Source: Aeromicrobium sp. Leaf350 (GTDB lineage: Bacteria > Actinomycetota > Actinomycetes > Propionibacteriales > Nocardioidaceae). Taken from it: a stretch of 64,000 nt of DNA. Position numbers and translations under genes: made by a program. Shown piece by piece: positions 604-36,342 of the stretch. The DNA lies in the NCBI RefSeq assembly GCF_916858655.1, contig NZ_CAKASL010000003.1:310001-374000 (forward strand), in the 5' to 3' direction. Below the pieces are notes generated by a model. The model ran no database searches and was not told the DNA's origin. It was given only the letters and a program-made list of their open reading frames with translations. The first letter of the stretch is position 1; every line of letters begins with the position of its first letter.

Positions 604-2253
<1,650 letters not shown>

Positions 2254-2319
2254 GGGACCACTCTGGGGGTGGCTGTCCTCCGCGCCAAGGGCTTTCGCTC
2301 GATGTGAGCGTCTCGAGTG

Positions 2320-3486
2320 TCAGGTGGTGACGGTGCCGCGCTCATCGCCGAGGACCGCGCACTCCAGCACGAACCGGTCCCAGGGCCGGTGCGGGTCGCG
2401 GCCCGTGAGCGCGGTGAGTCGCTTGAGCCGTTGCCGCAACGTCTGGGCGTGCAGGCCCAGGTCGGCGGCCGCGCCGGCCGCGGACCCGACGCGCAGGAAG
2501 GCCGCGAGACCCTCGGCCACGTGGGCGTGGTCGCCGCCGGCCAGTGGGCCCAGCACGAGGTCGGCCAGGCGTGAGGGGTCGGCGTCCGGGTGACGGCGCA
2601 CCAGGCCGAGGGCGTGGGCGTCGCCCTCGTCGAGCAGCGTCCCTGGCCGCGAGAACGCGGAGGAGGGTGCGTGGTCGAGGAGGTGCTCGGCCAGGCGCGA
2701 GGTCGCGGGGAGGTCGTCGACCCGCAGCCCGGTCGAGCGGAATCCGCGCCCCGTGCCAGCGGCGTTGGTCAGGAGCACGACCTGCGGCGGTGTGACGAGC
2801 ACCGCCGAGCTGCCGTGGACCCGCACGATCGACGTGTCGGCCGCGTCACCGAGCATCGCGAGCGCCACCTCGTCCGCGGCTGCCGCACGCAGCACCGTCA
2901 GCACCAGGCGTGGCGCGATCTCCACCCCGAGCTCGCGCGCCCGGTCGGCCAGGTTGGTCCGCGTCACCTGCCGGCCGACGAGCAGGTCGCCGGCGAGGTC
3001 ACCGATCGCGCGCACGCGGTCGACGCTGACCCGCTCCGAGGCTGCGTGGTAGCCCTCGTAGATCGCCTCGGACAGGGCATCCATCGAGGCCATCCAGAGC
3101 CGGGCCATCGCCATCGTGTCGGCCACGGTCAGCAGGTCGGGTCCGACCCGCTCGACCATCGCCGTGACCTCGGCCCCCGCCAGTCGGTAGGCCCGCAGCA
3201 CCGCCGGCAGGGGGCGGCCGTCGAGAGCGCGGGCGGCGCCGATGCCCTTGAAGCGGCGGAGGTCCTCGGTCGTCAGCTCCGCGCCGTCGACCCAGAGATC
3301 GAGGATCCGGGTCGTGCCCCAGGAGGCGATCTCGGTGACCTCCGCGACCTGTTCGCGCGACAGCGTCGCGTAGGTTGGGATCTCCAGCTGGATCGCGGCC
3401 ACGACCCGGTCGGTGACCTCGCCGAGGTGCTCCAGCACCTGGGCGCGGATGCGCGCTCGTGCGTCGTGGCCCGTCACTGATCTCAC
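2320..3486 (-). CDS. PucR/CdaR-family transcriptional regulator
   Basis: A 388-residue regulator. The N-terminal half (about 1-170) is a helical sensor region with RsbR-like character. The middle resembles the GGDEF-like domain of CdaR proteins. The C-terminus (about 325-385) has the PucR helix-turn-helix: AFLRVGSAAGAAADLGLH followed by AQTLRQRLKRLTALTGRDP, matching the family's TLxxRLxRIxxLTGRDL pattern. PucR proteins act as activators or repressors of nearby catabolic genes in response to metabolites. The flavoprotein dehydrogenase directly downstream is the obvious candidate target. The first Met is used as start; TTG/GTG alternatives cannot be excluded. Confidence 0.86.
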   Translation of the reverse strand: MRSVTGHDARARIRAQVLEHLGEVTDRVVAAIQLEIPTYATLSREQVAEVTEIASWGTTRILDLWVDGAELTTEDLRRFKGIGAARALDGRPLPAVLRAYRLAGAEVTAMVERVGPDLLTVADTMAMARLWMASMDALSEAIYEGYHAASERVSVDRVRAIGDLAGDLLVGRQVTRTNLADRARELGVEIAPRLVLTVLRAAAADEVALAMLGDAADTSIVRVHGSSAVLVTPPQVVLLTNAAGTGRGFRSTGLRVDDLPATSRLAEHLLDHAPSSAFSRPGTLLDEGDAHALGLVRRHPDADPSRLADLVLGPLAGGDHAHVAEGLAAFLRVGSAAGAAADLGLHAQTLRQRLKRLTALTGRDPHRPWDRFVLECAVLGDERGTVTT

Positions 3487-3759
3487 CTCGCTGCGGGTCT
3501 CGTGGTGGTCACTTCGGGGGTCGAGGCGACGTCCTGTCGGTCACGATCGTCCCAGCAACGCGGTTCGATCGCCGCCGGTATCCCCGCCTGAGCCCGGAAA
3601 ATCAGGGCCGAACCGCACTGCGTGACCCGGATCCGGAGTACCGTTGAAAGTGGAACTAGGGCCCCGACAACTCACGCGCCGTCGCTCCTCCGTCAGAACG
3701 TCATCGGCCGCACCGCGGAACTCCCGAGCACTGGCTTCCACCCCGAGAGGGGGTCGGGC
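3487..3759. other. Divergent intergenic region (PucR / LuxR regulator)
   Basis: This 273-nt stretch separates two divergently transcribed regulators. It is less GC-rich around 3638-3660, where a TTGAAA hexamer (3642-3647) occurs, so promoters for one or both genes probably lie here. An open frame continues upstream of the chosen LuxR start to 3622, but it lacks family similarity. I see no RNA gene or clear terminator. Confidence 0.4.
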
Positions 3760-6414
3760 ATGGACCAGGTCCACCGTCGCGCCGCGCTGGCACGGATCAC
3801 GGCGCTCGCCCGCGGGGACGAGGGCGCGCTGCTGGTGCACGGCGAGCCAGGGCTCGGCAAGAGCCACCTGCTCCGGTCGGCGATGGATGCGATGACGATC
3901 AGGACCGAGCTGGTCAGCGCCCCGGCCGGGGAGTCGGCGATCCCCCTGTCCGGATTCTCCGTGGTGCTCGACGCCATGCGGGGTGAGCACGCCACCAGCT
4001 TCGGACGCCACCTCGAGCTCCGGTCCACCACACCGGCGGGGCTCTTCTCCGCAGCGCAGGACGTGCTCGACCTCCTCCACGGCCTGGACCTGCCGCCGTG
4101 CCTCGTCCTCGTCGACGACCTGGACTCCATGGACGACGTGAGCCGGTCCCTGGTCGGGACCATGGCCGCCCACCTGCTGGGCACCGGGGTCCGGATCGTC
4201 GCGACAGCCCGCGACGGCCGTGTGGACGGCGCACTGGCCGGGCTCCCGGCGATCGAGCTGGCGCCGTGGAGCGTGGGGGACCTCGTCGATCTCGCCCTGC
4301 GCCACGACGAGCGCGCGGAGGAGTCGACGGTGCGCATCATGGCTCCGTACGCCGCAGGTAATCCGACCATCCTCGCCGAGCAGCTCGCCGCGCTACGACC
4401 GGACCAGCGCGCAGGCGACGCCTGGCTCACGCTCCCGCCCCGCGCGACCCCGACGCTGATCGAGGCCGTCAGCTGTCCGTCCCGCGGGGGGCAAGAGGCC
4501 GTGACCCAGCTCCTCGAGGTGGCCGCGCTCGCACCACTCGCCCACATCCAGACGCTGGGCGAGGTCCATGACGACGGTACCGACGCGATCGAGGACCTGA
4601 CGGACGCCGGGGTCCTGCGACCCCGCGGACTCCACGTGACCTTCGGGGACCAGCGTCTGAGGTCGATGCTGTACTGGCGGCAGCCGGCCCGGTTGAGGCG
4701 TGAGCGTCACTTCGAGACCCTGCCCCGACTCGCCGAGCATCACGACGGCGACCTGGCGACCTGGCACGGGAGCTTCGCGAGCCTGGGCGAGGACAGGGTC
4801 GCCGAGCTCATCCTTGCCGCCATCAGGCTGGTCGACGACCAGCGCGTTCCGGAGGCGATCGAGTTCGCCGAACGGGCCCTGCGCCACACGACACGACCCG
4901 GGGACCACTCCGCCGTGCTGATCCGCTTCTGTGGTCACCTGCTCCAGGTGGGCGAGGTCGGCCTCGCGGCGCGCTACAGCGAGCGGATCCAGACCTCGCA
5001 CGAGCAACCGGGGCTGCTGCTGGAGGCGGCCGTCTTCAAGATCGTCGCCCAGCTGTTCGACCGTCAACGGATCGGCGACGACGAGGCGCAGGCGCTCGTG
5101 GCGCTGCATGCCGAGGCCGGCGTCGACCGCGCCAGCGACCTCCTGACCCTGACGGCGTTCTACCGGGCCGAGCGCTGGGAGGTCCAGGAGGCGCGACACC
5201 TCATCGAGCCGGCGCTCACCCGCGTCGACGAGGTCTCCGCCGACACCCGCTCGAAGGTCATGACCCTGGTCGACATCCTCGACGCGGTCGACGGCCGCCC
5301 CGGCCCCCCGCGCACGCCGTCCGTCGACGAAGTCGAGCCGGCGAGGCTCCCTCCGGACGTCCTGCTGATGCGGGCGCGCGCCCTGACGCTGCGGGAACGC
5401 TATCCGCAGGCACGTGGCGTCTTCCACCTCGTGCTCAACCACCCGACGCAGCGCCAGCGCGTCTGGTCCGACCTGGCGCTCTACGGGACCATCGGCAACG
5501 AGATCAGTGCCGGGGAGTTCCAGCTCGCGCGGGACGCCATCGCCACGTGGGGCACCTCCTCACCGTGGGTCAACCGCCACACCGCCGCTCACACCATGAT
5601 CCGAGCCTGGCACCAGTACTCACTCGGGGCGACGGACACGGCGCTGGAGATCGTCGACGCGGTCGTGGAGCTGGCGTCGAAGGAGTCGAGCACGGGTCTC
5701 CGCGCCCGCGCCTACGCCCTCCGCGGCGCTATCGGTCTGCTGAACGGGGACCCGGAGGGTGCCGTGGCCGACCTCCGTCGTGTCACGGCCATGTCGCAGC
5801 GCTTTGCGAACCCGTCCTTGCTGCGTCACTGGGCCGACTACGTGGAGGCCTGTGTCCTGGTCGACCGCGTCCAGGAGGCGCAGTCGGCCACGGTCGCCCT
5901 CGAACGCCGCCTGACGAAGCGCGAGTCACGCTGGGGTGCCCTCGCCCTCGCGCGCTGCCGAGCCCTGTTGCAGCCCGGCGAGGAGTCCCTGGCCCTGTTC
6001 GCCCGAGCGGTCGACACGTTCGAGTGGGGGGAGGTGCCCTACGAGTTCGGTCGCACGACCGCCGCGTTCGCCGAGCGGCAGGAGTCGCTCGGGCTCGCCA
6101 ACCAGGCTCGGTACAACCGCATCGCTGCCATCACGGCGTTCGAGGCGTGCGGGGCGCACGCGTGGGCGGCCCGCGCGGCCCAGGCGCCGGAGGCAGCGCC
6201 GACACCGAGCGCCTCCCTGCTCGACCAGCTCACGCCCGAGCAGCAGGAAGTGGTGCAGTGCGTCCTGCGCGGCATGCGCACCCGAGAGGTCGCGGCGGCG
6301 ATGTTCGTCTCGCTGCGCACCGTCGAGCTGCGTCTCACGCAGGTGTACCGGACGCTCGGCGTGCGTTCCCGGGTGGAGCTCATGGCGCTGCTGGCCGATC
6401 GCGACCAGACCTGA
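3760..6414 (+). CDS. Large ATP-binding LuxR-family transcriptional regulator
   Basis: About 884 residues. An AAA/STAND-type NTPase lies at the N-terminus with a Walker A motif GEPGLGKSH and a Walker B-like VLVDDLDSM. The centre is a helical TPR-like region. The C-terminal 60 residues form a LuxR helix-turn-helix (LTPEQQEVVQCVLRGMRTREVAA, then VSLRTVELRLTQVYRTLGV, written here in two parts). ATG 3760 is chosen because GAGAGGGGG sits 7 nt upstream and the family motif begins immediately after; the frame stays open to 3622. LAL-type regulators usually activate secondary metabolism or polymer use. It lies beside the polysaccharide locus and may control it, which is inference. Confidence 0.86.
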   Translation: MDQVHRRAALARITALARGDEGALLVHGEPGLGKSHLLRSAMDAMTIRTELVSAPAGESAIPLSGFSVVLDAMRGEHATSFGRHLELRSTTPAGLFSAAQDVLDLLHGLDLPPCLVLVDDLDSMDDVSRSLVGTMAAHLLGTGVRIVATARDGRVDGALAGLPAIELAPWSVGDLVDLALRHDERAEESTVRIMAPYAAGNPTILAEQLAALRPDQRAGDAWLTLPPRATPTLIEAVSCPSRGGQEAVTQLLEVAALAPLAHIQTLGEVHDDGTDAIEDLTDAGVLRPRGLHVTFGDQRLRSMLYWRQPARLRRERHFETLPRLAEHHDGDLATWHGSFASLGEDRVAELILAAIRLVDDQRVPEAIEFAERALRHTTRPGDHSAVLIRFCGHLLQVGEVGLAARYSERIQTSHEQPGLLLEAAVFKIVAQLFDRQRIGDDEAQALVALHAEAGVDRASDLLTLTAFYRAERWEVQEARHLIEPALTRVDEVSADTRSKVMTLVDILDAVDGRPGPPRTPSVDEVEPARLPPDVLLMRARALTLRERYPQARGVFHLVLNHPTQRQRVWSDLALYGTIGNEISAGEFQLARDAIATWGTSSPWVNRHTAAHTMIRAWHQYSLGATDTALEIVDAVVELASKESSTGLRARAYALRGAIGLLNGDPEGAVADLRRVTAMSQRFANPSLLRHWADYVEACVLVDRVQEAQSATVALERRLTKRESRWGALALARCRALLQPGEESLALFARAVDTFEWGEVPYEFGRTTAAFAERQESLGLANQARYNRIAAITAFEACGAHAWAARAAQAPEAAPTPSASLLDQLTPEQQEVVQCVLRGMRTREVAAAMFVSLRTVELRLTQVYRTLGVRSRVELMALLADRDQT

Positions 6415-6441
6415 CCGGTCCCACCTCGGCCCGCGCGGGTC

Positions 6442-7692
6442 CTACCGGCGAACGGGACTGCGCCAGACGCCGCTCGATCCGCCCCGGAAGGCGCGCACCA
6501 ACGCTCGCAGCGACGACATCGAGTCGACCACACGCAGGGCGAGGAAGGCCGGCGCGTAGGCCACGAAGCGGAGGTTGCGCGTCATGACGGCTGCGTAGAG
6601 CGAGAGCATCAGGTCCGGCACCACGATCCCGGCGAGCACGGTCGTGACCGGGACCACCGCGGCGGTGCCGCTCGCGAGACCGCCCGGATCGAACCCCGCC
6701 TCGGCGAGCAGGCCGGCCAGGAGCAGCACGACCAGCACCGGCACGACCAGCACCAGGAGCAGGCTGGCCAGGAAGATCTCGGCGACGAAGACCAGCAGGC
6801 CCGCCCAGAAGACGTCCGGACGGATCCTGTGTCGCATCGTCGTCTGCCAGAAGCCGAGGCTCCAGCGATCCATCTGGCGCACATACTCCGAGAGGGAGTC
6901 CGGGTCCTGCGTGTAGGCGACGGCTGCCCCGGGGTCGAAAGCCACGCGGCCGAGCCGCTTCGTGTGGATCTCGAACGTCATGTTGTAGTCCTCGATCGCC
7001 AGGCCGGGTGCGGCGATGTCGACCTCGTGCAGGATCTCGGTCCGGTACATGCTGGCGAACCCCGGCACGATCGTCACCGCGTTGGCCCGACCGGCCGCCT
7101 GGCCGTACTTGTGCAGTGTCTGCACCGCCACGTAGGTCCGCTCCCGGTGTGCCAGCAGCACCCGGCCCGTGCGAGTGCCGGCGCGTGCGCCGTTCAACGT
7201 CGCTGCCCGACCCGCGACCGCCACCACGTCACGGCCGTTGAACAGCGGCAGGCCCGACGAGAGGTAGTCGGCCGACAGGTGGGTGTCGGCGTCGAGCAGG
7301 AGCACGACGGCGAAACGACCCGGGATGTCGAAGTGCCGCAGGCCCGCGACCAGGGCGCCTGCCTTGCCGCGATTGTGCACCAGCTCCATCACGCGCGCCC
7401 CTGCGGCGCGAGCCAGCTCGACCGTCGAGTCCGAGGAGGCGTCCGAGACGACGAAGATCTGCCGCCCGGGCAGCAGCTTTCGTACCGCGGCCAGGGTCGC
7501 CGGGAGCACGAGCTCCTCGTTGCGCGCCGCAATGATCACCGCAACGTCCTCGGGTGCGACCTCGGCCGGCAGCCAGCGCGGGTCGCGGTCGGGGAAGGCC
7601 TCGCCCATCACGGCTCGGGCCAGACCGACGCAGGCCCAGCAGATCGTGCTGACGCCGAGCACCAGCACGGCGGTCACCGCGAACCAGATCAT
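6442..7692 (-). CDS. Membrane glycosyltransferase family 2 (processive polysaccharide synthase-like)
   Basis: About 416 residues from ATG 7692, which has GGAGGCGG six bases upstream. The frame extends to 7767 but without a comparable ribosome site. One N-terminal membrane helix (residues 3-25) precedes the GT-A domain. The metal-binding D134-A-D136, the E234-D235 acid/base region and a QMDRW motif (273-277) match the D,D,D,QxxRW pattern of processive synthases such as cellulose, chitin or PNAG synthases. Several C-terminal helices (about 295-390) would form the export channel. It faces the sugar-nucleotide operon that starts at 7972, and I infer that it polymerises the sugars made there. Confidence 0.87.
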   Translation of the reverse strand: MIWFAVTAVLVLGVSTICWACVGLARAVMGEAFPDRDPRWLPAEVAPEDVAVIIAARNEELVLPATLAAVRKLLPGRQIFVVSDASSDSTVELARAAGARVMELVHNRGKAGALVAGLRHFDIPGRFAVVLLLDADTHLSADYLSSGLPLFNGRDVVAVAGRAATLNGARAGTRTGRVLLAHRERTYVAVQTLHKYGQAAGRANAVTIVPGFASMYRTEILHEVDIAAPGLAIEDYNMTFEIHTKRLGRVAFDPGAAVAYTQDPDSLSEYVRQMDRWSLGFWQTTMRHRIRPDVFWAGLLVFVAEIFLASLLLVLVVPVLVVLLLAGLLAEAGFDPGGLASGTAAVVPVTTVLAGIVVPDLMLSLYAAVMTRNLRFVAYAPAFLALRVVDSMSSLRALVRAFRGGSSGVWRSPVRR

Positions 7693-32983: not shown

Positions 32984-34462
32984 TCAGTCGCCCCAGCCGG
33001 CGAGCCGGCCGTGACGCGCCACCTGGCTCAGGCGACGGTCGACCTCGTCGCGCACGTGACGTGAGCTGACGATCAGCATCTCGTCGCCGGCCATGATGCG
33101 GGTCGTCGTGGTGGGCACGATCGTGCGCTCACCGCGCACGAGGAGCGAGACCATCGCCCCTTCGGGCAGCCGGAGCTCGCCCACCTCGATGCCGGACAGT
33201 CGTGAGCTCTCGGCGACCCGCACCTGCAGCAGGTCGGCCTCGACCCGCTCGAGCGGGGCGGACTCGACCTCGAGCTGACGCACGTCGCCGAGCACCCCGC
33301 TCCACGCGGCGAGCGCCCCCAGAGGCGCCGCCTGCGCCAGCGTGTAGACGACGACGGCGACGAAGACGATGTTGAACAGGTCGCGCGAGCCGGCCACGCC
33401 GTTGGCGAGCGGGATCGTGGCCAGGATGATCGGCACGGCTCCTCGGAGCCCGGCCCAGCCGAGGAACAGCTGTTCCCGCCAGTCGATCCCGAACCACACG
33501 GCGCACGCCGCGATCGACAGGGGTCGCGCCACGAAGGTCAGGATGGCGCCGACCGCGAGACCCATCCAGACGTGCCAGGCGGAGAACTCGTCCGGGTTGG
33601 CGAGCAGCCCCAGCATGACGAACAGGGCGATCTGGGCCAGCCAGCCGACCCCCTCGACGAACGAGCGGGTCGCGGTGCGGTGGGGGAGCACCGTGTTGCC
33701 GAGCACCAGGGCGGCGATGTAGATCGCGGCGAAGCCGGAGGCGTGGATAGCGGCCGCCGAGGCGTACGCCAGGATCGTGAATGCCAGGACCACGAGCGGG
33801 TACAGGCCGGAGGCGGGCAGCGCGACGCGACGCAGCAGGGCGCCGCCCAGGGCGCCGACGGCGAGGCCGATGCCGATGCCCACGACGATCTCGTAGAGGA
33901 TCAGGGCCACGAAGGCCCACACCCCGTTCTCGGCGAGCTCGCCCGTGCTGATCGCGATCACGAGCACGACGATCGGCGCGTCGTTGAGGCCCGACTCGGC
34001 TTCGAGCGTGCCGCTGACCCGGTGCTTGAGGTTGACCGTGCGCAGCACCGAGAAGACGGCCGCGGCGTCGGTGGGCGTCAGCACCGCCGCCAGCAGGACC
34101 GAGAGCGTCCAGTCCATGCCGAGGAACGTGTGCACGCACACCGCGACGACCAGCACGCTCACGACCGACCCCAGCGTCGCGAGCAGGAGGCCGAAGCCGA
34201 TCGAGGGGCGCACGTGAGCCCAGTTCGTCGTGATGCCGCCCTCGGCGAGGATCAGCATGAGCGCCGCGAAGCCGAGCGAGAGCGCGAGGTCGGCGTCGTC
34301 GAACTCGATGCCCAGCCCGTTGGTGCCGAGCAGCAGGCCGAGGCCCAGGTACATCAGCAGCGACGGCAGACCCGCCGTGACGGAGAGGCGAACGGCGAGG
34401 ACGGCGACGATCAGCACCGCGGACCCGATCAGCAGGAACTGGTCGAGGTCGTGGACGTCCAC
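32984..34462 (-). CDS. K+/H+ antiporter (CPA1/NhaP2 type) with RCK_C domain
   Basis: 492 residues. About 12-13 transmembrane helices contain the CPA ion-binding motif TPTDAAAVFSVL and LEAESGLNDAPIVVLVIAIS, where the Asp pair carries cations. The C-terminal ~90 residues form a TrkA_C/RCK_C regulatory domain (VRQLEVESAPLERVEADLLQ, then GEMLIV-like strands around DEMLIVSSRHVRDEV). It would export K+ against H+. RCK_C domains in several bacteria bind c-di-AMP, and disA is in this window, so nucleotide control is possible but untested. Confidence 0.88.
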   Translation of the reverse strand: MDVHDLDQFLLIGSAVLIVAVLAVRLSVTAGLPSLLMYLGLGLLLGTNGLGIEFDDADLALSLGFAALMLILAEGGITTNWAHVRPSIGFGLLLATLGSVVSVLVVAVCVHTFLGMDWTLSVLLAAVLTPTDAAAVFSVLRTVNLKHRVSGTLEAESGLNDAPIVVLVIAISTGELAENGVWAFVALILYEIVVGIGIGLAVGALGGALLRRVALPASGLYPLVVLAFTILAYASAAAIHASGFAAIYIAALVLGNTVLPHRTATRSFVEGVGWLAQIALFVMLGLLANPDEFSAWHVWMGLAVGAILTFVARPLSIAACAVWFGIDWREQLFLGWAGLRGAVPIILATIPLANGVAGSRDLFNIVFVAVVVYTLAQAAPLGALAAWSGVLGDVRQLEVESAPLERVEADLLQVRVAESSRLSGIEVGELRLPEGAMVSLLVRGERTIVPTTTTRIMAGDEMLIVSSRHVRDEVDRRLSQVARHGRLAGWGD

Positions 34463-34566: not shown

Positions 34567-36342
34567 TCAGGACCAGACCTTCACGTAGTCGACCTCCATG
34601 GTCGCCGGGAACGTCGACGCGGGGGTCGGGGCGTTCTCCCCGAGACCGATGCCCTGCGTCAGGTTGATGGCGAACGGCTGGTCGAAGGGATGTGACAGCA
34701 GCCCCTCCAGCAGACCCAGCTGGTAGTTCAGGCACAGGGCGCCGTCGTACCAGATCTTGAGGCTCGTCTGCGTCCACTCGGCCGTGTAGGTGTGGAACTG
34801 GGTCGGGTCCTGGATCAGGCACTGGTAGTTGCTGCGCTCGGACTCCGGCTGCGTCGTGTCGAAGTGGATCATCGGGATCAGCCGGTCGGGGTGCACCGAG
34901 AAGAACTCGGCGATGTCGATCTCGCCCGACAGGGGCCATGCGCCGTACTTCGGCTCCTCCGGGTACAGCCAGAAGGCCGAGTGCGCGCCGCCGGTCGTCG
35001 TCGCGGGCATCTTCGCGCGGATCTCGAAGCGCCCGTACGTCTGGCTGAACAGGCCCTGGGTCGAGACCATGCCGGCGATGTGCGCCGACGTGAACGGGCC
35101 GTCGGGGGCGTCGCACGTGAACGGCGTGGCGGCCTTGGCCGTGAGCTTCAGGGTGCCGCTGCTGACCGCGACGGTCTCCGGGCTGTCGACGTAGCAGTCG
35201 TGGTTCACGGTGTAGCTGTTCTCCTCGGTGCGGATCGGCAGCCACTTGGCGCGGTCGAGCTCGGTGCCGCCGAAGTCGTCGGAGAAGGTGCAGGCCCACG
35301 GACTGCCGTCGGACTTGGTGATCGACGGGCCGCACGACGCGGCCAGCGCGACCGAGGCGTCGTACTTCGCCTGGGCGTCGGCCTGGGCCTGCGCCTTCGC
35401 GAGGGGACGGGCCTGGGCGTCGGCCTTGGCCTTGGCGGAGTCGACGGCGGCGGCGTAGGAGCCCCAGATCGCGGCGTAGTACGCGTCCCAGAACGTGGGT
35501 CGGTTGACCGTGACGGTCTCGGTGGCGGTGGCCGTGGCGGTCGCGGAGGCCGTGGCGGTGAACCCGTTGACCTCGGCCGTCTCGTAGACGGTCAGGGTCT
35601 CCTCCTGCGTCCAGGTGTAGGTCTGCTCGACGCCGGCGGCGAGCAGCGCCTCGGCGTCGGCCTTGGCCTTCGCCCGGGCGATCGGTCGCGCCTGGGCGTC
35701 GGCCTTGGCGCGCGCCTGCTCGCCGGCCGCGGCGTAGGCGTTCCAGAACGCGCCGACGTAGGCCTCCCAGTACGTGTGGGCATGGCTCGACCCCGTGGCC
35801 GTGGCCGAGGCCGTCGCGGTCGCCGACCCGTGTCCGACGTGGCCCTGGAGCTCGTAGGTCTCCTCGACGGTGACGGTCTCCTCCTGGGTCCAGGTGTAGG
35901 TCTCCGTGACGCCGGCGTCGTACATCGCCTGCGCCTGCGCCTGGGCCTGGGCCTTCGCGACGGGGCGCGCCTGCGCGTCGGCCGTGGCGCGCGCCTGCTC
36001 CGCGGCGGCGGCGTAGGCCGACCAGAACGCCGAGAAGTAGGCGTCCCAGAACGTCGGGCCGGTCGCCGTCTTGGTGGCGGTCGCCGAGGCGGTGGCCGTC
36101 GCCGACGCGGTGGCGACGTGGCCCCCGACCTCGGCGGTCTCGGTGACCGTGACGGTCTCCTCCTGGGTCCAGGTCTGCGTCGACGACTCCACGGCCGGCG
36201 CTGCCGGGGCGGCAGGTGCAGCCTTCGGACCCGCCGCATGGGCCGCGGTGACGGCGACGCTCGTGACCAGCAACGTGGCGGTGGCGACGGCGACGACGCG
36301 AGACGCCGTCGCCGAGCCACGCCACCGAGTGATGGCGTTCAT
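34567..36342 (-). CDS. Secreted glycoside hydrolase family 16 enzyme with three 93-residue N-terminal repeats
   Basis: 591 residues. Signal peptide 1-37. Residues 57-335 are three tandem repeats of exactly 93 residues, each opening with TWTQEET (57, 150, 243), passing through an ATASATATA-type strand, an aromatic FWDAY motif (98, 191, 284) and an Ala/Lys/Gln-rich helix (ADAQARP). The GH16 domain follows (about 350-591) with the catalytic GEIDIAE, nucleophile Glu474 and acid/base Glu479, so the enzyme should be active. GH16 enzymes cleave beta-1,3/1,4-glucans, galactans or related polymers. The repeat region resembles no binding module I know. The family's usual form is just the catalytic domain plus known CBMs. 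Confidence 0.9.
   Translation of the reverse strand: MNAITRWRGSATASRVVAVATATLLVTSVAVTAAHAAGPKAAPAAPAAPAVESSTQTWTQEETVTVTETAEVGGHVATASATATASATATKTATGPTFWDAYFSAFWSAYAAAAEQARATADAQARPVAKAQAQAQAQAMYDAGVTETYTWTQEETVTVEETYELQGHVGHGSATATASATATGSSHAHTYWEAYVGAFWNAYAAAGEQARAKADAQARPIARAKAKADAEALLAAGVEQTYTWTQEETLTVYETAEVNGFTATASATATATATETVTVNRPTFWDAYYAAIWGSYAAAVDSAKAKADAQARPLAKAQAQADAQAKYDASVALAASCGPSITKSDGSPWACTFSDDFGGTELDRAKWLPIRTEENSYTVNHDCYVDSPETVAVSSGTLKLTAKAATPFTCDAPDGPFTSAHIAGMVSTQGLFSQTYGRFEIRAKMPATTTGGAHSAFWLYPEEPKYGAWPLSGEIDIAEFFSVHPDRLIPMIHFDTTQPESERSNYQCLIQDPTQFHTYTAEWTQTSLKIWYDGALCLNYQLGLLEGLLSHPFDQPFAINLTQGIGLGENAPTPASTFPATMEVDYVKVWS
35338..36174 (-). repeat. Three 279-bp in-frame tandem repeats in the GH16 gene
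   Basis: Units at 36174-35896, 35895-35617 and 35616-35338 encode the 93-residue repeats. All landmark motifs recur at exactly 93-codon spacing with no indels, while the sequence within units has diverged, which points to duplication followed by selection to keep length. Confidence 0.88.

Follow-up and report, generated by a model that had tools for sequence, protein, structure and literature searches.

What might three tandem copies of a 93-residue module do for the secreted enzyme that carries them? The question is raised by a reverse-strand gene in a 64,000-nucleotide stretch of Aeromicrobium sp. Leaf350 (contig NZ_CAKASL010000003.1, positions 310,001 to 374,000; hereafter the window), whose product carries three such units in front of a glycoside hydrolase family 16 (GH16) domain. 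Tandem accessory modules often determine where a secreted hydrolase acts. From the sequence and a predicted structure we suggest, tentatively and at somewhat under even probability, that the three units form a tandem module that would attach this enzyme non-covalently to a surface or polymer through avidity. The module is unmatched by the family models used, is found in one genus only, and follows a simple rule of strands with alternating Thr and a helix with Ala at every fourth position. The parts of the gene, in positions of the window, are as follows.

34567-36342, minus strand: open reading frame (ORF) of 591 residues with an ATG start
36232..36342, minus strand: putative signal peptide, residues 1-37, ending ...AHA-A (hydrophobic segment; cleavage site judged by eye)
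36175..36231, minus strand: Ala/Pro-rich linker, residues 38-56 (from sequence)
35896..36174, minus strand: module unit 1, residues 57-149 (sequence and profile)
36073..36174, minus strand: predicted hairpin of unit 1, residues 57-90 (strands 57-72 and 75-90), with Ser/Thr on one face (AlphaFold2 two-unit model and composition)
35914..36051, minus strand: predicted helix of unit 1, residues 98-143, with FWDAY at its start and Ala at each fourth residue (AlphaFold2 and conservation)
35617..35895, minus strand: module unit 2, residues 150-242, with the YWEAY form (sequence and profile)
35338..35616, minus strand: module unit 3, residues 243-335 (sequence and profile)
34570..35328, minus strand: GH16 catalytic domain, residues 339-591, extending to the final residue (Pfam PF00722 and solved relatives)
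34906..34926, minus strand: catalytic motif GEIDIAE, residues 473-479, intact (from sequence)

An earlier reading of this DNA from its letters, the original prediction, described three exact 93-residue repeats. The spacing is indeed exactly 93, with TWTQEET at residues 57, 150 and 243, FWDAY at 98 and 284, and YWEAY at 191, all where it had placed them. The copies themselves are not exact: at 67, 69 and 55% amino acid identity, and 69-76% nucleotide identity, they are diverged duplicates of fixed period. ADAQARP stands in every unit (residues 121, 214 and 307), while ATASATATA, also attributed to every unit, is literal at 77 and 263 only (units 1 and 3), the shorter SATATA being common to all three. 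Against a profile built from them the units score E 4e-48 to 3e-46, by construction.

The domain behind the units resembles laminarinase-type GH16 enzymes. It matches PF00722 above the cut-off (E 2.2e-13 over residues 389-559; 50.5 bits against a curated 22), and two NCBIfam rows for the protein are GH16 models far below cut-off. Among PDB sequences the best E is 1.5e-20, and the nearest include laminarinases and beta-1,3-glucanases (3iln, 2vy0, 2hyk). The ExDx(x)E catalytic motif of GH16 is present as GEIDIAE, intact as predicted, and the signal-like start has a mean Kyte-Doolittle value of 2.11 across 19 residues starting at residue 16. The product is probably a secreted GH16 enzyme of beta-glucanase type, a kind that usually cuts glucans. 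We would place it in CAZy subfamily GH16_3, which, in the sections cited here of the GH16 roadmap (PMC6827312), comprises endo-beta-1,3- and 1,3/1,4-glucanases.

A profile made from the window's three units alone matched 11 other Aeromicrobium genomes, with best E per genome of 2e-19 to 4e-29. The module is thereby found in 12 of 49 genomes of the genus, as 42 units in 13 proteins with one to four units each: one in G004, two in G015, three in G000 (the window's genome), G002, G010, G012 and G187, and four in G013, G030, G032, G146 and both tandem paralogues of G019. Units are spaced by 93 or 96 residues in 11 multi-unit proteins and by 96, 92 and 96 in G146, and in 13/13 of these canonical proteins they precede a GH16 domain with GEIDxxE. 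The original prediction had named absence of the repeats from close homologues as the mark of an assembly artefact. Twelve genomes carry the module; the nearest GH16 domain, that of L080/L109 (58-59% identical), nevertheless has SLH domains in its place. High-GC, Ala-rich DNA does yield long spurious ORFs in other frames, but the homologues refute an assembly or frame artefact, and with a signal-like start, an in-frame GH16 match and equal architecture in 12 other proteins we give it practically no credence.

Outside the genus, sampled sets of genomes from the family (294), order (293), class (393) and phylum (396) yielded no convincing match; these samples overlap, 13-17 first-look candidates were scored per genome, and copies that have diverged may have escaped. 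Among plasmid and phage records there was no unit match. Several weak hits were rejected: L077 (E 1.6e-4) and L078 (E 7.1e-4) are Arg/Gly-rich or low-complexity frames, the ORF in G014 (E 0.0014) is unlike the module, and that in G165 (E 3.2e-4), a 49-residue frame containing a stop, was taken as chance. Within the window's own genome the unit profile matched nothing beyond the gene itself. That genome also holds a second GH16-family match (G000:C1:1740397-1740729, L137; 33.8 bits, in a 269-residue frame).

The conservation of the module was read from an alignment of 36 of the 42 units, one of them shortened by three residues; two G019 units, identical or near-identical to others, and the four of G146 were left out, and two smaller alignments (A3, A4) took in only the window, L042 and L043. 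Across these units Ser/Thr occupies 78% of odd against 2% of even positions in strand 1, and 81% of even against 2% of odd positions in strand 2. Along the helix, Ala recurs at every fourth position seven times running in 36/36, a period of 4 and not the 3.5 heptad spacing of coiled coils (by inspection of the pattern rather than by a coiled-coil predictor). For the window's units 1, 2 and 3, the alternating Ser/Thr was matched by 1, 6 and 0 of 2000 same-letter shuffles and the run of Ala at every fourth residue by 0, 0 and 32 of 2000. Conserved aromatics (W43, Y46, Y47 and W48 of the unit) cluster at the helix start.

These patterns fit the predicted fold. An AlphaFold2 model of two units, drawing on ten sequences, gives a long two-stranded hairpin with its turn at unit positions 17-18 and then a single 46-residue helix, the next unit's strand beginning one residue after it (pLDDT 95, pTM 0.64); it agrees with the strand and helix elements read earlier from the letters. 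We infer the strand register, the exposed faces and the unit-to-unit geometry, and, from composition, that the hairpin packs its Ala/Val face against the Ala stripe of the helix. Foldseek returned no match to the module model at E <= 0.001, arrangements of the RAD52 and ribosomal S5 type included; such hairpin-helix arrangements may be common, and these cover the 46-residue helix only in part.

The original prediction also held that the module does not look like known GH16 accessory domains, and that a profile match to a known CBM or coiled-coil family would count against its novelty. No such match arose in Pfam, NCBIfam or PDB sequences. Nothing but GH16 passed the cut-offs of Pfam and NCBIfam (libraries that do not hold CAZy's own CBM models), the 36 units scanned singly in Pfam had an unrelated model as their best match, at E 0.011, and PDB sequences gave no family match. 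Tox-GHH (PF15636), at 19.1 bits against a cut-off of 25, was set aside as a chance compositional match; one of the 36 single units matches it, at 0.46. The accessory domains named for other GH16 subfamilies in the cited sections of the roadmap are CBM32, CBM13, CBM6 and CBM18, and no 93-residue tandem module is among them (PMC6827312). The open literature yielded no paper joining Aeromicrobium with GH16 or laminarinase, although one may exist in print elsewhere. Secreted hydrolases with tandem accessory modules are already known, and what is new here is this module, not a new kind of system.

Among 16 canonical or diverged-module proteins (the latter are described below), simple motif and hydrophobicity tests found no LPXTG (0/16) and no hydrophobic stretch above a mean of 1.0 after the signal. 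A lipobox before the first unit was absent from 14/16, and the matches in L033 and L036 precede the hydrophobic segment, so that none lies at a signal end. The GH16 domain terminates the protein in 16/16. We prefer attachment on four grounds: no anchor signal was seen, the copies stand in tandem, the nearest paralogue has SLH domains in this place, and the Ser/Thr face is conserved. Each unit would fold as a long two-stranded beta-hairpin with one long alpha-helix behind it; with the Ala/Val face of the hairpin on the Ala stripe, a face of Ser/Thr only and the charged flanks of the helix would be left exposed. Repeated units could then bind with avidity to a repeating polymer of the cell envelope or the substrate, and the array would keep the C-terminal enzyme at that polymer. 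The SLH-bearing paralogue (L080/L109, genome G002) likewise has tandem N-terminal domains in the module's place, and SLH domains attach by binding to wall polymers, as stated in the part of the source cited (PMC6081394). The unit profile has no match in the paralogue, whose domains belong to PF00395, a model that in turn finds nothing in the window protein or in units scanned singly.

A less probable alternative, though the strongest of the rivals, is a rigid or hinged spacer, in which a linear chain of units, each about 6-7 nm long if the predicted helix is of ideal length, would set the reach of the enzyme and copy number would tune it. Copy number does range from one to four between species, the predicted fold is long and leads into the next unit within one residue, and with pTM at 0.64 and pLDDT at 95 the units may be elongated or only loosely positioned. 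Adjacent units in relatives are 50-98% identical, and above 84% in G012, G013, G019 and G146 (G010, out of register, is excluded), which points to recent duplications and to arrays that are still being duplicated. In one region of G019 (L032, G019:C1:2468000-2487000, the same region as L042) lie the two tandem GH16 paralogues with four units each; the final unit has the same sequence in both, and two adjacent units of one are 98% identical.

Such arrays recall the Periscope proteins (SHIRT, Rib and SasG stalks), whose tandem folded domains also differ in copy number between relatives and whose likeness extends to the adjacent units that are 85-98% identical in some module relatives. Because that identity fits a length-varying stalk, we slightly lowered our probability for attachment and slightly raised that for a stalk. 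Periscope proteins, however, project an N-terminal domain, and the Sgo_0707 homologues in the cited portion of that work carry a C-terminal LPXTG (PMC8201768), whereas here there is no LPXTG, the enzyme is C-terminal, the window's units are 55-69% identical, and number was compared between species. In the 16 proteins no anchor signal was seen ahead of the array, which leaves a stalk no known footing; a stalk whose N-terminus is free would not project anything, whereas tandem modules on a secreted enzyme would suit avidity. In our judgement a spacer would also seem to need less uniformity than the Ser/Thr face and Ala stripe show. Were the module a stalk after all, it would be a new rod-forming repeat.

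Several observations nonetheless weigh against attachment. The Ser/Thr face of the hairpin is without the aromatic ladder that many carbohydrate-binding modules have, and the aromatics at the helix start may belong to the core. In other GH16 proteins the module's place is taken by likely spacers (L120 has eight TIG stretches there, and L040 and L111-L113 have PT-rich linkers), and adjacent units can be as much as 98% identical in relatives, a feature of stalks that vary in length. Domain order by itself shows no localisation. The original prediction had offered an anchoring, polymer-binding or stalk module; of these we tentatively favour anchoring or binding.

The same Ser/Thr strands invite three further explanations. 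In the inferred register, the strand pairs T9-T26, T7-T28, T/E5-T/S30, T3-T32 and T1-T34 would make two adjacent ranks of Thr, and Thr outnumbers Ser at each paired site. Outward Thr ranks are what TxT ice-binding and ice-nucleation solenoids present, and paired rows might order water or meet a crystalline surface. We regard this as very unlikely: the register comes from the model, Thr in general favours strands, position 5 is Glu in 13/36 units, the antiparallel, likely twisted hairpin with its helix differs from a flat parallel beta-solenoid, and nothing here links ice to the GH16 enzyme or the organism. Alternatively, helices with two opposite Ala stripes and Ser/Thr hairpins might pack across molecules into clusters, fibres or a matrix; such self-assembly seems to us unlikely, if less so than a role with ice. 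The strands might also be O-mannosylated as the protein is secreted, which could shield it from proteases or let lectins bind. Secreted actinobacterial enzymes are O-mannosylated on Pro-Thr linkers, and the sites described in the cited part of that work are unstructured linkers or loops, often Pro-rich (PMC12757957). The PT-rich linkers of relatives lie in the same place as the module, whose own Thr strands are predicted to be folded and hold no Pro. The window's genome does encode a Pmt-family protein (PF02366, E 7.3e-30), but 8/14 control genomes match PF02366 too, so its presence says little, and we hold O-mannosylation to be highly improbable.

A basic variant bears on what the module might bind. 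G018, G134 and a second G004 copy encode GH16 proteins with one unit-length stretch after a signal-like start. This stretch is rich in Arg and Lys, partly strand-like and partly helix-like with much Ala, and in all three a PT-rich linker follows it; a frame fragment at a contig edge in G028 carries such a stretch too. The stretch, of 93-95 residues, has a net charge of +23, +16 and +15 in the complete proteins, against -10 to 0 in the 36 canonical units. The canonical profile at 0.001 missed these forms. A profile of the diverged form does detect canonical units, in G187 and G012, with E values of 9e-7 to 3e-5; comparing the canonical and diverged profiles gives a probability of 53.8% over 35 columns, not decisive alone. 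The GH16 domains behind the diverged stretches make up a clade of their own, adjacent to the 12 canonical ones (94/83). With moderate confidence we take the stretches to be homologous to the canonical module; the shift in charge reads as if the ligand had changed. A bolder version, which we think unlikely, is that the module is a binder of ordered surfaces, seen so far in one genus, in which a helix of four-residue Ala period and a twisted hairpin would present a Ser/Thr lattice without an aromatic ladder to crystalline glucan or chitin, an envelope glycopolymer or ice, the basic form having been retargeted to an acidic polymer. If the Thr lattice does bind a surface, it would recognise glycan or crystal without the usual aromatic platform.

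How the module came to the window's enzyme can be framed as two histories. The GH16 tree holds 55 domains from chosen loci, a subset of those listed. The 12 other canonical-module enzymes form a single clade (100/99) with the diverged ones alongside, and a 19-row clade (99/94) encloses every module-bearing enzyme of the tree, the window's included. Inside that clade the window's enzyme groups with its SLH-bearing (L080) and module-less (L081) paralogues (96/90), apart from the 12 other canonical-module enzymes. A constraint uniting all 13 canonical enzymes was not rejected (p-AU 0.072), and a tree of units places the window's among the others at 86/83 only; for these two reasons we do not claim domain transfer. 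Either the module is ancestral to the 19-row clade and was lost or replaced in two lineages, or it was gained anew in the window's lineage. The neighbouring gene is relevant here.

32984..34462, minus strand: Na+/H+ exchanger gene, neighbour of the GH16 gene (Pfam PF00999, E 4.1e-46)

In L035, L111, L112 and L113 an exchanger homologue (70-77% identical) is found no more than about 4 kb from the GH16 gene, and the three full diverged loci share this neighbour with the window and G013. These statements rest on the flank tblastn rows examined; the exchangers near relatives' GH16 genes favour ancestry of the module at the window's locus.

Other GH16 proteins of the family have SLH, TIG, Ig-like (by eye) or PT-rich segments, or nothing, in the module's place, and those with SLH, TIG, PT-rich or no domain there make a natural swap series. 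L109 (G002:C8:40000-52000; ORF 4902-6503, minus strand) has two SLH stretches and an fn3-like one just below cut-off, and its genome also encodes a three-unit module GH16 protein (L036). L120, from the same family outside the genus (G150:C6:48000-60000; ORF 2193-6245, plus strand), is a 1351-residue GH16 protein with its TIG stretches in front. A conserved ORF of 535 residues follows the module GH16 gene in L033 (4322-5926, plus strand) and L052 (4892-6496, plus strand); the two are 98% identical, and homologues occur in L040 (90%) and L039 (82%).
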